Shown here: positions 2,539-8,547 of the stretch, one piece after another | Numbering within the stretch: position 1 is the first letter of the stretch | How the letters are laid out: every line of letters begins with the position of its first letter | Virus record (IMG/VR): IMGVR_UViG_3300017917_003225 | Coordinates: 1 to 26,852 of that record | DNA length: 26,852 nt | Origin: a virus | Strand: one strand, 5' to 3' | The notes under the pieces: model-generated | Seen by the model: the letters and a program-made list of their open reading frames with translations, nothing else | The model's database searches: none | Told to the model about the DNA's origin: nothing | Translations under genes and position numbers: made by a program

Positions 2539-3552
2539 TTATAACCACATTGGATTACTTAAACTCCATTTAACTGTTTTTTCTAATGCTTCATTAAAAG
2601 AAAATGGTTGTAACCAACCCAATGATTGTAATTTATTTCCATTAAGACCATATTTTAAATCAAGTCCAGGTCTGTGTTCTGTCGGATCAATATATTTAAT
2701 ATTAACTGGTTTACCAATTATCTTGCCAATTTCAAAAGCAACTTGATCATTATACATTTCAATATCTCCAGCAACATTAAACTTTTCAATTTTATTTAAA
2801 CCATCTGAAAATCTGTGTGGTAAATTATTAAACCTTTCTATTAAAAATTTAATTGCATCAACCTGGTTTTGTGTATACAAATAATATCTACTACTTATTT
2901 TTACTTCATTATTAATTATTTTGGAATGTATTGGCAAGACTTTATCATTATTAATATATTCAATGGCTCGTGGAATAAATGCTTTTGAATCTTGTCTTTC
3001 TCCAAACATATTTGTGGTATTTGTAATAATAATTGGAAGATCATAAGTCCTCCAGTATGCTTGGGCTATTGCTTCTTGACTAGCCTTTGATGCAGAGTAT
3101 GGATTAGATGGTACTAACGAGTCCCATTCTGAATGATTTGTACCGTCACCAAATACCTCATCTGTAGAAACCTGTATAAATGTTTTTAAATTATCTAAAG
3201 TTTTAGCATATTCAAACATATTTAATGCAAGATTAATATTATTTTGAACAAATGGAATAGGTTCTTTAATTGAATCATCTACATTTGCAAGCGATGCTGT
3301 ATTAATAATTATATTAATATCACCAAATTCAGATCTTGTTATTTTATCAATTGGTGTGGCAAGATCATGTGTAATTATTTTAACACGATTTCTATGTTCT
3401 GGAACTTCATTAAATACTGCTCTTAATCTAGCAGATATACCAACATGATTAAAAGAATCTGTTAAAACAAATTCCCAATCTGTATTTTTTAACAAATACA
3501 ACAGAGTATGATGACCCATAAAGCCACCACCACCAGTTAGTAAAACTTTCAT
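2539..3552 (-). CDS. NAD-dependent sugar-nucleotide epimerase/dehydratase (RmlB-like)
   Basis: Short-chain dehydrogenase of the extended type, closest to dTDP-glucose 4,6-dehydratase. Visible motifs are the N-terminal nucleotide-binding GGGGFMGHH, the STDEVFGD strand carrying the catalytic Thr/Asp/Glu set of RmlB enzymes, and the YSASK catalytic Tyr-x-x-x-Lys. About 337 residues is normal for the family. The expected reaction is NAD-dependent oxidation and 4,6-dehydration of a nucleotide sugar in the cytoplasm, feeding glycan synthesis. RmlB and UDP-sugar epimerase relatives cannot be separated by eye, though the STDEVFGD pattern favours a dehydratase. A GTG at 3558 is also open, but the ATG at 3552 follows GGGGTGGA at good spacing. 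The gene sits between two genes for exported proteins, which suggests sugar decoration of surface or virion material. Confidence 0.85.
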   Translation of the reverse strand: MKVLLTGGGGFMGHHTLLYLLKNTDWEFVLTDSFNHVGISARLRAVFNEVPEHRNRVKIITHDLATPIDKITRSEFGDINIIINTASLANVDDSIKEPIPFVQNNINLALNMFEYAKTLDNLKTFIQVSTDEVFGDGTNHSEWDSLVPSNPYSASKASQEAIAQAYWRTYDLPIIITNTTNMFGERQDSKAFIPRAIEYINNDKVLPIHSKIINNEVKISSRYYLYTQNQVDAIKFLIERFNNLPHRFSDGLNKIEKFNVAGDIEMYNDQVAFEIGKIIGKPVNIKYIDPTEHRPGLDLKYGLNGNKLQSLGWLQPFSFNEALEKTVKWSLSNPMWL

Positions 3553-3567
3553 GTCCACCCCATCTAT

Positions 3568-3602
3568 AAAAATGGGGGACAGGTTTTATCCCATCCCCCA
3601 TT
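3568..3602 (-). terminator. Rho-independent terminator after the S-layer-like gene
   Basis: On the minus strand AATGGGGGA (3602-3594) pairs perfectly with TCCCCCATT (3579-3571) around a 14-base loop, followed by TTT, which gives a run of five T at 3572-3568. The 9-bp stem with five G:C pairs begins 10 bases after the stop codon of the gene at 3613. It is the only clear intrinsic terminator I see in the window. Confidence 0.8.
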
Positions 3603-3612
3603 CATTTAAAGA

Positions 3613-5217
3613 TTACTTCTTTAGAAGTGCCTTTTGAAGTGCTGCAATTTGCTTAGTAATTTGTGCAATCAAAGCAACGATTGCGCTAAGAACCTGAGCA
3701 TTAGTTACCGCACCGTCAGCAATGCTATATGAAATAGTTTTTGCTGAATCAGTTGATGCATATGCTGGTAGATCTACAACCATATTATAGTTTCCATTAA
3801 CATTATTAACAGTAAACTTATATGTCTTTGATCCATTAGCAAATGTGTCTGCAGATGTAGCAGCAGCAACTGCTGTTAATCCACCACCAGAAATAGCAAC
3901 GCCACTTCCTATTGTAGATGAATCTGCAACCTTTGCACCATTAATATCTGTAGCAGAAATTGTTAGTGTAGCAATTTCTCCTGGAACATAAGAATTCTTA
4001 TCAAGAGAAATCTTATATTTATTCACTCCAAGACCACATGCTGCAACAAACTCATTTGAGTAAATTGTAGTTAGATCTGAAAGAACATGCTTAATGCGGA
4101 TAATAGATGATCCAGATGTTGAAGCACATGTCCATCCACCAGTTTGAACTACTGTTGCAGATGATGCTCCAGCAATAGAAACTGAAGTTACTTGTGAAGT
4201 ATACTTTGTTGTATCAGCAACTGGGGTGACTCCAGCAAGTTGATTTCCAGCAGCATCCTTGACTACAAAGTCAAAAGTGCCTGTACGTGCTCCACCAGCA
4301 AGTGCAATGTCTTCTCCAGTTACTGAAATAGATGCTGCACGACCTGTAAATGTAATGCTCTTTGTTGCAAGCACTACACCATTAAATGAAACTGTAATTA
4401 CAGTATTTACTGGTTTATCTGAATTAGCAGTTCCCTGCTTAACATAAAGTACTCCACCAACACCAGTCTTTGCTGCAAATGAAACTTGTGTTGAAGGTGT
4501 TCCATCCCAAGCAACTACTGCACCATTTGTTGCTGTTGCTTGCAAAACACCATTTGTTGAAAGTGTTGCTTCATAAGCATCTTTTGTAAGAACATTTACA
4601 TAACCTGTTCCATCATTAACAACAGTTGTTGATCCAGTAATATCTACATTTGAAGCAAGAGTTCCTGCAGTTGATGTATCTTGTACACGAACAAATGAAT
4701 TTGCAACAGAAAGAATATCTGTCTTAGCAGTTGTTCCTGCATAAATGGTCTTAATGTCAATAGTAGAAGTTGTTGCTCCTACCTTTTTCTTTTGAGTAAT
4801 TGTAACTGTACCCTCACCATTAATAGTAGCCTTAATATTTGTTGGCAAACCAACATCTGATGATGTTGTTGCTGTAAATGTAAAAGTCTTACCCAAGTTA
4901 GTTAGAGTAGTAGTTGCTGGATTAGAACCTGCTGCTGTAAAATCAGTAAAAGTTGCTGGTCCAGAAATTTCAAGAGATACATTATCTCCAGCAGTTGCAG
5001 CGAGTGTGTCTGATGTTGTAAGAACAGCAATAGCATTCACTCCAGCCTCAGCCTTTGTAGTATCCGTTAGTACGGTTACACCACGAGCACCAGCAGACAG
5101 TGAACCAGATAATACGTATCCGTTCGAAACTGCTGCAGAAGCCTGCGGAATTGCAACCAAAAATGTGCTTGATACGGCTGCAGCCATAATCAAGGCGACC
5201 TTTTTAAATGAATTCAT
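3613..5217 (-). CDS. Secreted S-layer-like/Ig-like repeat protein of host type
   Basis: 534 residues. A textbook signal peptide (MNSFKKVALIMAAAV, ending in QASA near residue 28) is followed by a Thr/Ala/Ser/Val/Gly-rich beta-sandwich body with several Ig-like strands (for example the segment ISLDKNSYVPGEIATLTISA) and two cysteines (WTCAS, AACGLG) that could form a disulphide. The last about 27 residues form an amphipathic helix (VLSAIVALIAQITKQIAALQ, then KALLKK) that resembles the C-termini of surface proteins in freshwater Nanopelagicales, from memory. AAGGAG lies four bases before the ATG. A perfect TATAAT lies just upstream and an intrinsic terminator just downstream, so the gene is probably transcribed alone. 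G+C is clearly higher than nearby: 32 of 60 bases at 5041-5100 against 13 of 60 at 2881-2940. This suggests acquisition from a host. Role unknown: receptor masking, exclusion of other phages or virion decoration are possible. Confidence 0.75.
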   Translation of the reverse strand: MNSFKKVALIMAAAVSSTFLVAIPQASAAVSNGYVLSGSLSAGARGVTVLTDTTKAEAGVNAIAVLTTSDTLAATAGDNVSLEISGPATFTDFTAAGSNPATTTLTNLGKTFTFTATTSSDVGLPTNIKATINGEGTVTITQKKKVGATTSTIDIKTIYAGTTAKTDILSVANSFVRVQDTSTAGTLASNVDITGSTTVVNDGTGYVNVLTKDAYEATLSTNGVLQATATNGAVVAWDGTPSTQVSFAAKTGVGGVLYVKQGTANSDKPVNTVITVSFNGVVLATKSITFTGRAASISVTGEDIALAGGARTGTFDFVVKDAAGNQLAGVTPVADTTKYTSQVTSVSIAGASSATVVQTGGWTCASTSGSSIIRIKHVLSDLTTIYSNEFVAACGLGVNKYKISLDKNSYVPGEIATLTISATDINGAKVADSSTIGSGVAISGGGLTAVAAATSADTFANGSKTYKFTVNNVNGNYNMVVDLPAYASTDSAKTISYSIADGAVTNAQVLSAIVALIAQITKQIAALQKALLKK

Positions 5218-5234
5218 CTTTCTCCTTGTTAGTT

Positions 5235-5263
5235 ATTATATTAGATTGAACTTATCAAGGTAA
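5235..5263 (-). promoter_or_regulatory. Candidate promoter for the S-layer-like gene
   Basis: An exact TATAAT lies on the minus strand at 5240-5235, overlapping the stop region of the terminase gene. The hexamer 17 bases upstream is TTACCT (5263-5258), three of six matches to TTGACA. A closer TTGATA at 5258-5253 is spaced only 12 bases away. A transcript would begin near 5228, directly at the AAGGAG ribosome site (5227-5222). The paired terminator at 3568-3602 makes a dedicated promoter more likely than the hexamers alone would. Confidence 0.4.
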
Positions 5264-7008
5264 TCCCTTACATTATCAGGAACTGGCCTTGTATCTAATT
5301 TTAGCATATCTTCGTCTTCTTCGTCAAGTGACCTTGATGATGACCAAGTATGAATTTCTATTTCATTATTCATATCTTTTGGTGTATGAGATATTGCATT
5401 AAATACAGCACCACATACAGCATCTGCAAGGTCTTTAGATTTTTTTCTAGGGTGATCGACCTTGTTATTATTCATAATTTTTAATTCTGCCATTTCATCC
5501 AGCAATAGTGAGATTAATGGAATGGCAATACGTTCTTCATAAATCATCATTGCTAGATCTTCATAATGTTTTTTTCCAACAGAAACAGTATCAGTTCTCA
5601 TTCCTACTGCCTTTAATTCTTGTTGAATATCAAATGATTGCCAACGGTCAAAGGTTACTAATCCTATATTAAATCCTTGACGCCTTAAATTTTGAATCCA
5701 TAGTTTCACTTCAGATAGATTAACTGGTCCTTCTGTTTTTGGTTCCCACCAAGCAACTGCATCTACAATTACAACTGGAGCAACTTGTTCATAATCTTTA
5801 ATTACCTGAATATTAACCCATTTATCTACATGTGCAATTGCTACAGCACATTTATCGTGTTTTTGTGCAAGGTCAGCATGAACATAATATAGTTTATCAG
5901 GATCTGGTTTAAATGATTCATCAAATCTTCTAAAAGCATCTACTGGATTTCTTAATGTCATACATTTTTCAAGTTTATCTCTTTGTTTAAAAAATGCATC
6001 GGATGAATATGTAGGGGTACATAGAAAACGCATCATGGCATCTCCCATATCAGTAAGAAATGCAATTTTAAAATCATCAATTTTTCTTGTTGGGTTTACT
6101 TCCCATGTTGGACGTTTTAATGCTAATACTTTTGGAATTTTATATGAAAGGATATGATCTTCTTCCCATGTAATTTCAAATTCATTATCTGGTCCTAATG
6201 GTAATTCGTCATTAATAATAAATTTATATCTACGCTCTACCGTTTCTTTTTCAGCAATTACTGAATCATAACGTTGTGAAATAAAATCACCTTGATAACG
6301 AGGAAATGAAAGAAGAACCACTTTACCAAGATCAGGAAAACGAGAATCTACGGTGCCACGAAATGCTTTATAAATGTTATCAGCAGTTTTTCCTTGTTCA
6401 TTGCCAGTGCCAACCTCTGTAGCAAAACCAGAAATTTCATCAAGCACTGCAAGAAATAAGTTCAAACCTTCATGTGATTCTCTTTCAGAATGTCCAGAAT
6501 AAACAGTAATTGCTTTATCAAATTCAATTGAATCTGCTTTTGGATTATATTTTCCAGCAAACCAAGGAGATTTTTCAATTTTTGTTTTAAATCCTTTAAA
6601 GAAAACATTCTTCGCTTGTTGTGCGTTAATAGCAACGTTAATAATATCTATAGCATCTCCAGCAGGTTTACCATAGTATGATGCTGGTTCTTTTAAACAT
6701 AATAGTTTATATACTACGTATGCACATGCTACAGTAGAAACAAAATCTTTTCCAGATCCTTTGCCAAGTTGCAGAATAATTTCATTTTTTGTATATTTTG
6801 AAAAATATGTTGCACCCTCCGATTCACCCATAATTTCCATCAAATCTTCTTTACGATAAATTTGACTCATTGCTTCTACAATATCATATTGAATATCAGA
6901 TAATGGTGGTTGACCTAAATAATCTGGAGACTCAACAAATGTTTTAGCATTAACAGGAGTTTCATTAAAATGATTTTCTTTTAGTACTTCAAAAAAATCA
7001 TTGAACAT
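5236..7008 (-). CDS. Terminase large subunit (packaging ATPase-nuclease)
   Basis: Motor that cuts concatemeric phage DNA and pumps it into the prohead. Residues are counted from the ATG at 7008. The ATPase part has a Walker A GKGSGKD (82-88, Lys87) and a Walker B LFLAVLDE (Asp190, Glu191). The RNase H-like nuclease part has acidic residues at HADLAQ (Asp379), TFDRW (Asp454) and the KDLADAV helix (Asp529). Walker A ends in GKD instead of GKT/S, a variant I associate with actinophage terminases. About 590 residues is normal. A TTG at 7017 is also open; the ATG at 7008 is preferred although no good ribosome site precedes either, and the overlap with the small terminase suggests coupling. No portal gene follows downstream: an S-layer-like gene comes next. 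Confidence 0.93.
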   Translation of the reverse strand: MFNDFFEVLKENHFNETPVNAKTFVESPDYLGQPPLSDIQYDIVEAMSQIYRKEDLMEIMGESEGATYFSKYTKNEIILQLGKGSGKDFVSTVACAYVVYKLLCLKEPASYYGKPAGDAIDIINVAINAQQAKNVFFKGFKTKIEKSPWFAGKYNPKADSIEFDKAITVYSGHSERESHEGLNLFLAVLDEISGFATEVGTGNEQGKTADNIYKAFRGTVDSRFPDLGKVVLLSFPRYQGDFISQRYDSVIAEKETVERRYKFIINDELPLGPDNEFEITWEEDHILSYKIPKVLALKRPTWEVNPTRKIDDFKIAFLTDMGDAMMRFLCTPTYSSDAFFKQRDKLEKCMTLRNPVDAFRRFDESFKPDPDKLYYVHADLAQKHDKCAVAIAHVDKWVNIQVIKDYEQVAPVVIVDAVAWWEPKTEGPVNLSEVKLWIQNLRRQGFNIGLVTFDRWQSFDIQQELKAVGMRTDTVSVGKKHYEDLAMMIYEERIAIPLISLLLDEMAELKIMNNNKVDHPRKKSKDLADAVCGAVFNAISHTPKDMNNEIEIHTWSSSRSLDEEDEDMLKLDTRPVPDNVRDYLDKFNLI

Positions 7009-7534
7009 CGTGGACAACTGTAATCACTTCGCCTTCTTTAGCAATTGCAGAAAGACGTTCCATAATTAAATTTCTTACTTCTGGATGAGAAGATGCTATA
7101 TCTCTAAGAATTCCAACAAGAACTTCTTGTCTGCGTTCAATTTCTACCATTTCTTCTGCAAGTTCTTTATTTTCTAGTAATCCTGCTTTTTGAAGCATAT
7201 CAATTCTTTTAGATTCAATATCCATGACTAATTTAATTGCTGCAGTTTTTGCACTAAGATTATTAGTCATTGATGCTTCATCGATTACTTCATATGATTT
7301 GCTAATTAATTTCCCATAATGTGCATCTGCAGCAGCAAGTGCTTCTTTTGCACGAGCACGTATTGCATCGTTAGCAGATGCCATAACTTTCCACTCATTA
7401 ATTAATGAAACAACTTGTGTTCTAGGAATAGACAACTCTTTAGAAATTTTTGTTGGATCATTACCTTTTAGGTATTCTTCTACAACCTTGTTGACTTGAT
7501 CAAGGTGTTGAATTAATTCATTTTCCGTTGTCAT
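6998..7534 (-). CDS. Terminase small subunit (DNA-recognition)
   Basis: Called from position directly before the large terminase and from layout. It has an N-terminal helix-turn-helix (about residues 25-50, DPTKISKELSIPRTQVVSLI) followed by a long, highly charged helical region suitable for oligomerisation. 178 residues fits small terminases, which bind the pac or cos site and load the large subunit. AAGGAA lies six bases before the ATG. The 3' end overlaps the large subunit start by 11 bases. No sequence family beyond the HTH could be recognised by eye, so the name rests on context. Confidence 0.75.
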   Translation of the reverse strand: MTTENELIQHLDQVNKVVEEYLKGNDPTKISKELSIPRTQVVSLINEWKVMASANDAIRARAKEALAAADAHYGKLISKSYEVIDEASMTNNLSAKTAAIKLVMDIESKRIDMLQKAGLLENKELAEEMVEIERRQEVLVGILRDIASSHPEVRNLIMERLSAIAKEGEVITVVHDVQ

Positions 7535-7856
7535 TATTTTCCTTTGCTATCTTCAATAATACCAGATAACCTATTAAATCATCAATATCATTATCTCCAA
7601 CATACTCTGTACCCTTCATTAAACGACTTAATTTATCATCAATTCTAACCCTAAGTTGCTCAACTGGATCTGCTTTACTAAAAATTCTTACAGGATCTAG
7701 AGCAGAATCTCCATAGGCAATATTTTTTTCAATAAGCATATGTGCTATTTCATGACAGGTAGCCCAAATTGCTGGTCCAGATGGAGCACCAACAGAGTGA
7801 AGATAAAGGTCTTGACATCTAAATTCTTTTGCATCTTTCCAAATTGGTTTAAGCAT
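7518..7856 (-). CDS. Nmad1/DUF1599-like nucleotide-modification-associated protein
   Basis: A 112-residue, mainly helical protein. The central and C-terminal parts carry the pattern of the nucleotide modification associated domain 1 (DUF1599): CHEIAHMLIEKN, YGDS, IFSKADPVEQLRVR, IDDKLSRLMKG and DDLIGYLVLL. The domain has been linked by comparative genomics to phages with altered DNA bases and to MazG-like nucleotide hydrolases. The biochemical activity here is not known. The N-terminal 30 residues are unlike the core and unassigned. AAGGGAGA precedes the ATG at good spacing. It overlaps the upstream glycosyltransferase gene by 8 bases and the small terminase gene by 17 bases, so it belongs to the same operon. 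A MazG-like gene occurs separately at 12180-12503. Confidence 0.6.
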   Translation of the reverse strand: MLKPIWKDAKEFRCQDLYLHSVGAPSGPAIWATCHEIAHMLIEKNIAYGDSALDPVRIFSKADPVEQLRVRIDDKLSRLMKGTEYVGDNDIDDLIGYLVLLKIAKENNDNGK

Positions 7857-8547
7857 TTTTCTCCCTTATATACTTTAGTTCTTCTTTTTGCCATTGAATA
7901 TATTTGCCATCATTCCAATTAATACTTGCAGTAAGATGTCTAAATCCTTCATTAAAATAAGAGACAACTCTATCTTCTAAAAATACAATAGATTCTTGTG
8001 AATAACAAAAAATATCATCTATTGTATTGTTTGAAAAATATTCATTAATTGCTTTTGTCCAAACTTTTACTCCAGTCATTTTATCTACAAATGCTTGGTC
8101 TGTATATTTAATATTTAAAAATTCTTTTTTTACTTTCTCAATAACAGCATTTAATAGTTTATGTTGTGGCACTGATGCAAATGTTAGTTGATTGTAATTA
8201 ATACCATCATCATCTTTTGATATTACAACACTATATTTTTTGGGTATCCACTCATTTATTGGTTTTTGACATATAGTATCTAAATCACAATATATTCCAC
8301 CATAAGTATACACAACTAGATATCTCCATATATCACTACGCATTACACCTATTGGACAATTATCAAAAATATCCAACCATTCTTGTCCAAATTGTTTTTC
8401 AATAAAAATTCTAATATCGTTATCATCCATATATATATATTTATATTCTGGATTTAAATCTTTCCATGTTTGAGCAGCATCTTTTGCATATTGTGGAAGT
8501 TGATCAAATGGGTCTTTATATGTTTGCCAAATAATTTTAGGAATCAT
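7849..8547 (-). CDS. GT32-type glycosyltransferase (DXD, OCH1-like)
   Basis: A 232-residue retaining-type sugar transferase of the GT32/Gly_transf_sug group. It starts with IPKIIWQTYKDP, the typical N-terminal strand, and has MRSDIWRYLVVYTYGGIYCD followed by LD, where the DLD (residues 88-90) is the metal- and nucleotide-sugar-binding DXD motif. It should transfer a hexose from an activated donor to a glycan, lipid or protein in the cytoplasm or at the inner membrane face. No signal or membrane segment is seen. The ATG overlaps the TGA of the small HTH gene as ATGA. With the RmlB-like gene at 2539-3552 it gives the phage two sugar-handling enzymes. DNA or virion glycosylation and host surface modification are both open. 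Confidence 0.85.
   Translation of the reverse strand: MIPKIIWQTYKDPFDQLPQYAKDAAQTWKDLNPEYKYIYMDDNDIRIFIEKQFGQEWLDIFDNCPIGVMRSDIWRYLVVYTYGGIYCDLDTICQKPINEWIPKKYSVVISKDDDGINYNQLTFASVPQHKLLNAVIEKVKKEFLNIKYTDQAFVDKMTGVKVWTKAINEYFSNNTIDDIFCYSQESIVFLEDRVVSYFNEGFRHLTASINWNDGKYIQWQKEELKYIREKNA

Follow-up and report, generated by a model that had tools for sequence, protein, structure and literature searches.

An exchangeable gene slot behind terL in freshwater actinophages, predicted to encode exported, host-related surface proteins

What is a gene for an S-layer-like exported protein doing directly behind the terminase gene of an actinophage? The locus that raises this question lies in a stretch of viral DNA of 26,852 nucleotides, here called the window, and all the window features given below are on the minus strand. 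In the original prediction, made from the letters alone, the gene was taken for a host surface protein captured by a phage and held in a self-contained, moron-like cassette. The kinship with host proteins is borne out by the comparisons presented here, while the gene position, referred to as the slot, appears to be more unusual than a moron: the phages seem to keep the export signal and to exchange host-derived surface proteins behind it.

The slot gene of the window is an ORF (3613-5217) for a putative exported S-layer-like or Ig-like surface protein of 534 aa, belonging to the family designated F0. Residues 1-28 (5134-5217) form a predicted Sec-type signal peptide; as read from the translation, this N-terminus is MNSFKKVALIMAAAVSSTFLVAIPQASA, then AVS, with AxA before A29, and its MNSFKK start is common to nearly all slot families. 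The mature part (3703-5133), defined by an AlphaFold2 model, fold matches and DNA breakpoints, is a predicted tandem Ig-like body and is the part exchanged among phages. In the model, which was built from 15 sequences and has a pLDDT of 70.6, the beta-rich tandem domains are followed by an amphipathic C-terminal helix with basic residues at its end (residues 506-533; 3619-3702). The signal peptide, Ig-like body and C-terminal helix first proposed for this protein can thus be seen in translation and model. Matches obtained with Foldseek and VIA-align include the Ig-like surface proteins PrgB, FdeC, invasin, SbsC and Sap; SbsC, SbsB and Sap, with Z of about 8-9, are among many Ig-fold matches. 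The likeness to Ig-like adhesins, invasins and S-layer proteins is probably that of a shared fold and no more, and none of the VIA or Foldseek matches pointed to a specific function. The protein has no family in PHROGs, NCBIfam or Pfam, the last giving weak matches below the cut-off, and a sequence search of the PDB returned nothing significant.

The fixed upstream neighbor of the slot gene is the terminase large subunit gene terL (5236-7017; PHROG terL, E 3e-13), preceded directly by a probable terminase small subunit gene (6998-7534), which is so named from its position (synteny) only. Further upstream, a glycosyltransferase-like gene (7849-8547) is variable or absent in relatives. The fixed downstream neighbor, recognized by synteny in related contigs, encodes a second exported protein, EXP2 (73-2490), with a signal peptide, a coiled coil, a beta domain, a Pro-rich stretch and a C-terminal membrane helix followed by RRR. 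Its predicted fold (pLDDT 62) is too weak for interpretation. The C-terminal membrane tail of EXP2 also occurs in host genomes; a host origin of EXP2 was considered and rejected, the host-genome matches being limited to this tail and short stretches. Neither EXP2 nor the slot protein has a match among 50,697 phage records. Between the slot and EXP2, the window carries a gene for an RmlB-like nucleotide-sugar epimerase (2539-3552; PHROG 540, E 5e-64), which is present in only one other contig (L028, with L227 being the same contig). Another relative, L002, has an unrelated 194-aa gene at that point, so the gap between the slot terminator and EXP2 can be regarded as an insertion site. The epimerase gene thus appears to be an exceptional insert outside the slot.

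When viral contigs were scanned with the slot protein, with terL and with the downstream protein, overlapping sets of 63, 80 and 80 loci, respectively, were obtained. Slot occupancy was assessed in the 172 contigs having terL and at least 700 nt beyond it. A long ORF lies directly behind terL in 162 of them, and in 156 it is an exported slot-type protein (155 with MNSFKK-like starts, plus L233). The order in related contigs is terL, slot gene, then EXP2; in six contigs terL leads straight to EXP2. Where the slot behind terL is empty, a copy can be found elsewhere in 9 of 17 records. The slot gene therefore looks like a near-universal gene of this freshwater actinophage lineage and not a sporadic accessory, with alleles varying in place of presence.

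Regarding expression signals, a ribosome binding site, AAGGAG (5222-5227), lies upstream of the slot gene, and AGGAG is found at this place in 133 of the 143 homologues. An intrinsic terminator (3565-3603), consisting of a hairpin (3570-3603) and a U-rich tail, stands directly 3' of the stop codon and is kept there in all families. The hairpin, originally described as having 9 bp and a U-tract, proves stronger than that, with 14 pairs including G-U (z -3.3), and a terminator-like hairpin occurs 3' of the gene in 143/143 complete homologues, as against 5/143 upstream of it and 2% of random 90-nt windows. The promoter proposed from a perfect TATAAT (5235-5240) is rejected. This hexamer spans the terL stop codon, is as frequent in the window as expected by chance (50 observed, 53.5 expected), is found upstream of the slot gene in just 26 of the 143 homologues, and coincides with no -35/-10 pair among the best 60 of 85 predicted sites. 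The excess in G+C that had been remarked on is real (0.388 for the slot gene, 0.322 for terL and 0.287 for RmlB), but it does not mark the gene as foreign: 0.374 is predicted from its own amino-acid composition with phage codon use, and the higher value is explained by a protein rich in Ala and Thr. Its GC3 of 0.144 falls within the range of the other phage genes (0.11-0.26), and a recent lateral gain deduced from composition is accordingly rejected. Compared with lambdoid morons, the slot gene has its own downstream terminator; an own promoter, a deviant composition and a sporadic presence were not found, and the RmlB gene that was to bound the cassette is a rare neighbor. The idea of a self-contained moron cassette between terL and RmlB is consequently abandoned.

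The window terL is 54% identical to that of the Stanwilliamsviridae (Streptomyces phage Samisti12), with which the order DnaE - MazG - RecA - Cas4 - RuvC - terL is shared. In that family, however, the gene behind terL encodes an HNH endonuclease, and neither an exported protein there nor a match to EXP2 is found. In the related genome G003, the portal, protease, major head protein and tape measure genes are located around 30-47 kb and the slot gene at 70 kb, outside the virion module and about 37 kb from the head genes. The distant relative G007 (terL 55%, DnaE 53%) has the slot protein and EXP2 at 71% and 70% identity, both located away from terL, which indicates that the two genes have moved between phage lineages. 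The mobility expected of a moron is to this extent partly confirmed, the slot gene being better conserved than terL and lying elsewhere. G007 (86.3 kb) also encodes a subtilase (L145:16294-17223; Peptidase_S8, E 1.5e-18) with a signal-peptide-like N-terminus, located about 1.3 kb upstream of its slot protein. In another genome (G549, at 70.1 kb), an exported ORF some 6.8 kb beyond terL has no counterpart in a relative.

The diversity of the slot proteins is large. When the 143 complete homologues and the window protein are grouped, 4 families are obtained at 40% identity, 13 at 60% and 52 at 90%, and the four families look unrelated to one another. Phages with slot proteins of different families can have terL genes up to 98.5% identical, and with the four families mapped on a terL tree of 124 rows, no fewer than 19 changes are required, as compared with 59 for shuffled labels. 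In near-identical pairs of phages, DNA homology covers terL, the ribosome binding site and the first 42-69 nt of the slot gene, is gone over the mature part and is back at the stop codon or terminator. One pair (G552/G551) has 43 kb in common at 94% DNA identity, with 20 of 24 genes matching and the slot gene without counterpart. The exchanged cassette thus appears to be the mature coding part alone, bounded on one side by the conserved sequence for the signal peptide and on the other by the stop codon or terminator. Since every family was recovered many times, in independent contigs and between the same flanks, chimeric assembly is unlikely to have caused these swaps.

Searches of actinobacterial genomes yielded host homologues, and the family is therefore not confined to phages. 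A genome scan found two actinobacterial relatives, a mixed profile matched in 36 of 199 related genomes and a window-type profile in 7 of 296 genomes from the same order; a search with one single host protein gave almost nothing (1/148), and one with the neighboring ECF sigma factor gave no information beyond close kin. The profile match of the slot protein to host surface proteins reached Prob 98.9. The window protein is 33% identical over its full length (589 columns) to the host protein L306, this full-length relative being on a 1.33-Mb contig, and the C-terminal 30 residues of the two proteins are almost alike (...KQIAALQKALLKK). Host relatives are also found for F3 (44% over 512 aa, E 6e-75) and F2 (39% over 594 aa, E 1e-66), and the similarity of F1 is to another exported protein of the host (E 1.4e-65). 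In a joint tree of host and phage proteins, the phage proteins fall into three groups, F0, F2 and F3. F0 is nested with L306, L315 and L305 (98/89) and F3 with L110 and L122 (97/86); well-supported branches force at least three changes between host and virus, and 0% of bootstraps need only one. F0, F2 and F3 thus each seem to take a nested position of their own among the surface proteins encoded in chromosomes of small-genome actinobacteria. At least three separate exchanges would lie behind this, the slot families either descending from exported surface proteins of the host order or being common to phage and host. The proposed capture of a host surface protein is in essence upheld by these profile and full-length matches and by the tree. 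As the similarity between phage and host proteins is at most about 45%, no recent capture can be seen, and the present swapping may be phage-to-phage.

Genomes of the host order (class Actinomycetia) measure 0.8-2.2 Mb, and Nanopelagicales or close kin are suggested as its identity. The host surface protein, which has no family model match in Pfam or NCBIfam, is encoded in the order ECF sigma factor, surface protein, O-antigen ligase (Wzy_C) and sugar-nucleotide (UDP-sugar) dehydrogenase. In host contigs (e.g., L314:6766-12585) the flanks of this locus are kept and the surface protein is strongly different between species. The ECF sigma - surface protein - Wzy_C arrangement looks like a host surface-type locus, and the Ig-like fold, the export and the locus suggest that the protein is of S-layer nature. 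Some F0 phage copies have a 28-aa C-terminal tail (TITCVKGK..KKVT..NPKCPTG.KKK) that also occurs in 204 of 296 genomes of the host order, with as many as 23 copies in one genome and identities reaching 93%; it can be seen in many host genomes, e.g., G374:C4 and G257:C1. This tail is a candidate for an undescribed surface-anchoring or sorting tail of this actinobacterial order.

From the slot, the swapping, the export signal and the host kinship, all of which are read from sequence, we infer that a host-type surface protein would be exported late, alter the surface of the infected cell and block re-adsorption or superinfection; a probability of about 0.45 is given to this reading. The slot protein would be made late from the terminase transcript, lateness being suggested by gene position, with the help of a strong ribosome binding site, and exported by the host Sec pathway. 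It would assemble on, or be shed from, the cell surface like the S-layer-like protein of the host, with anchoring through the same C-terminal helix or through a host-type C-terminal tail. The phage-binding surface would thereby be changed or masked, so that neither progeny nor competing virions would be taken up by the infected cell and its debris any more; receptor masking by the slot protein is plausible, and its function may depend on neighboring genes such as EXP2. Through swapping, a phage could come to resemble the strains that it encounters in surface type, or to differ from them. Somewhat more tentatively, the slot may be a locus dedicated to surface disguise, where the mature domain, repeatedly taken from the host's surface-protein repertoire, is replaceable and the signal peptide and terminator on either side of it are fixed, and by which the phage would set the surface type of the infected cell, change it by recombination and control the next infection.

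Other functions can be considered for the same gene. It is unlikely, but conceivable, that the phage copy acts in lysis and release, being built into the surface lattice of the host, where a poisoned or weaker subunit would loosen the envelope for virion exit. The position behind terL, suggestive of late expression, and the C-terminal helix or tail common to host and phage proteins fit such a role, as does the lack, in most F0, F2 and F3 copies, of the alanine-rich stalk of many host proteins (maximum Ala in 40 aa of 20-26 in most host proteins, about 12-14 in F0, F3 and most F2). Shortening is not a constant phage trait, however, since F1 and some F2 copies have the alanine-rich stretch and the window-type host proteins are without it, and extensive family swapping would be unnecessary for mere lysis. 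A role on the virion, to which the exported protein would be attached outside the cell or during lysis for decoration or adhesion, is slightly less likely. Ig-like domains are common on phage particles, the predicted fold resembles many viral Ig proteins and the slot adjoins a packaging gene; yet a classical signal peptide is conserved in all families, the homology is to host chromosomal surface proteins and not to known virion proteins (no PHROG match), and the virion genes of G003 are clustered about 30-40 kb away. It is the signal peptide and the host homology that make a virion role less likely.

The host homology and the swapping would equally suit a surface change unrelated to adsorption, such as protection against grazers, anti-aggregation or upkeep of the envelope during host shut-down, and a substitute for a shut-down host protein would also favor matching the host type. 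This alternative is slightly more doubtful, given that nothing in the sequence is specific to it and that exchange between near-identical phages is not obviously needed for it. As for a hitch-hiking moron, useless to the phage in lytic growth, its mobility between phage lineages is what such a gene would show, but the presence in 156/172 contigs, a dN/dS of 0.14-0.19 (within the family of the window) indicating purifying selection, the conserved ribosome binding site and terminator, and the copies often found elsewhere in the record where the slot is empty make it very improbable.

Several known systems offer comparisons. The host chromosomal S-layer-like proteins share with the slot proteins a signal peptide, an Ig-like body and a C-terminal basic helix or tail, at 33-44% full-length identity; the phage copies differ in sharing another signal peptide (MNSFKK), in being mostly without the alanine-rich stalk and in sitting behind terL with a terminator. 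Phage gene products exported to the host envelope are also found among morons and superinfection-exclusion proteins, such as T5 Llp and prophage-encoded envelope proteins. Unlike these, the slot appears to be a core gene of its lineage, combining a hypervariable, putatively host-derived mature part with a fixed signal peptide. In Clostridioides difficile, the type of the surface-layer protein SlpA decides phage adsorption (PMC10100898). The resemblance to the SlpA/SLCT system is one of arrangement, with surface-layer types exchanged at a fixed locus, and no sequence relation is claimed; the cassette is bacterial there, whereas the swapping slot is in a phage genome here. No paper describing an S-layer-like protein from Nanopelagicales or from one of their phages turned up in a search of the open literature.

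Little is known about the phages of small-genome freshwater actinobacteria, a very abundant group of hosts. If surface-protein types of the host travel with these phages and are exchanged among them, the surface of the infected cell would be partly written by the virus, and the strain-level variety of host surface loci would be tied, in a testable manner, to competition between phages. The slot type would also be a possible marker for matching phages to host surface types in metagenomes. Should the slot indeed serve to disguise the cell surface, it would be to phages what S-layer cassette switching is to bacteria.
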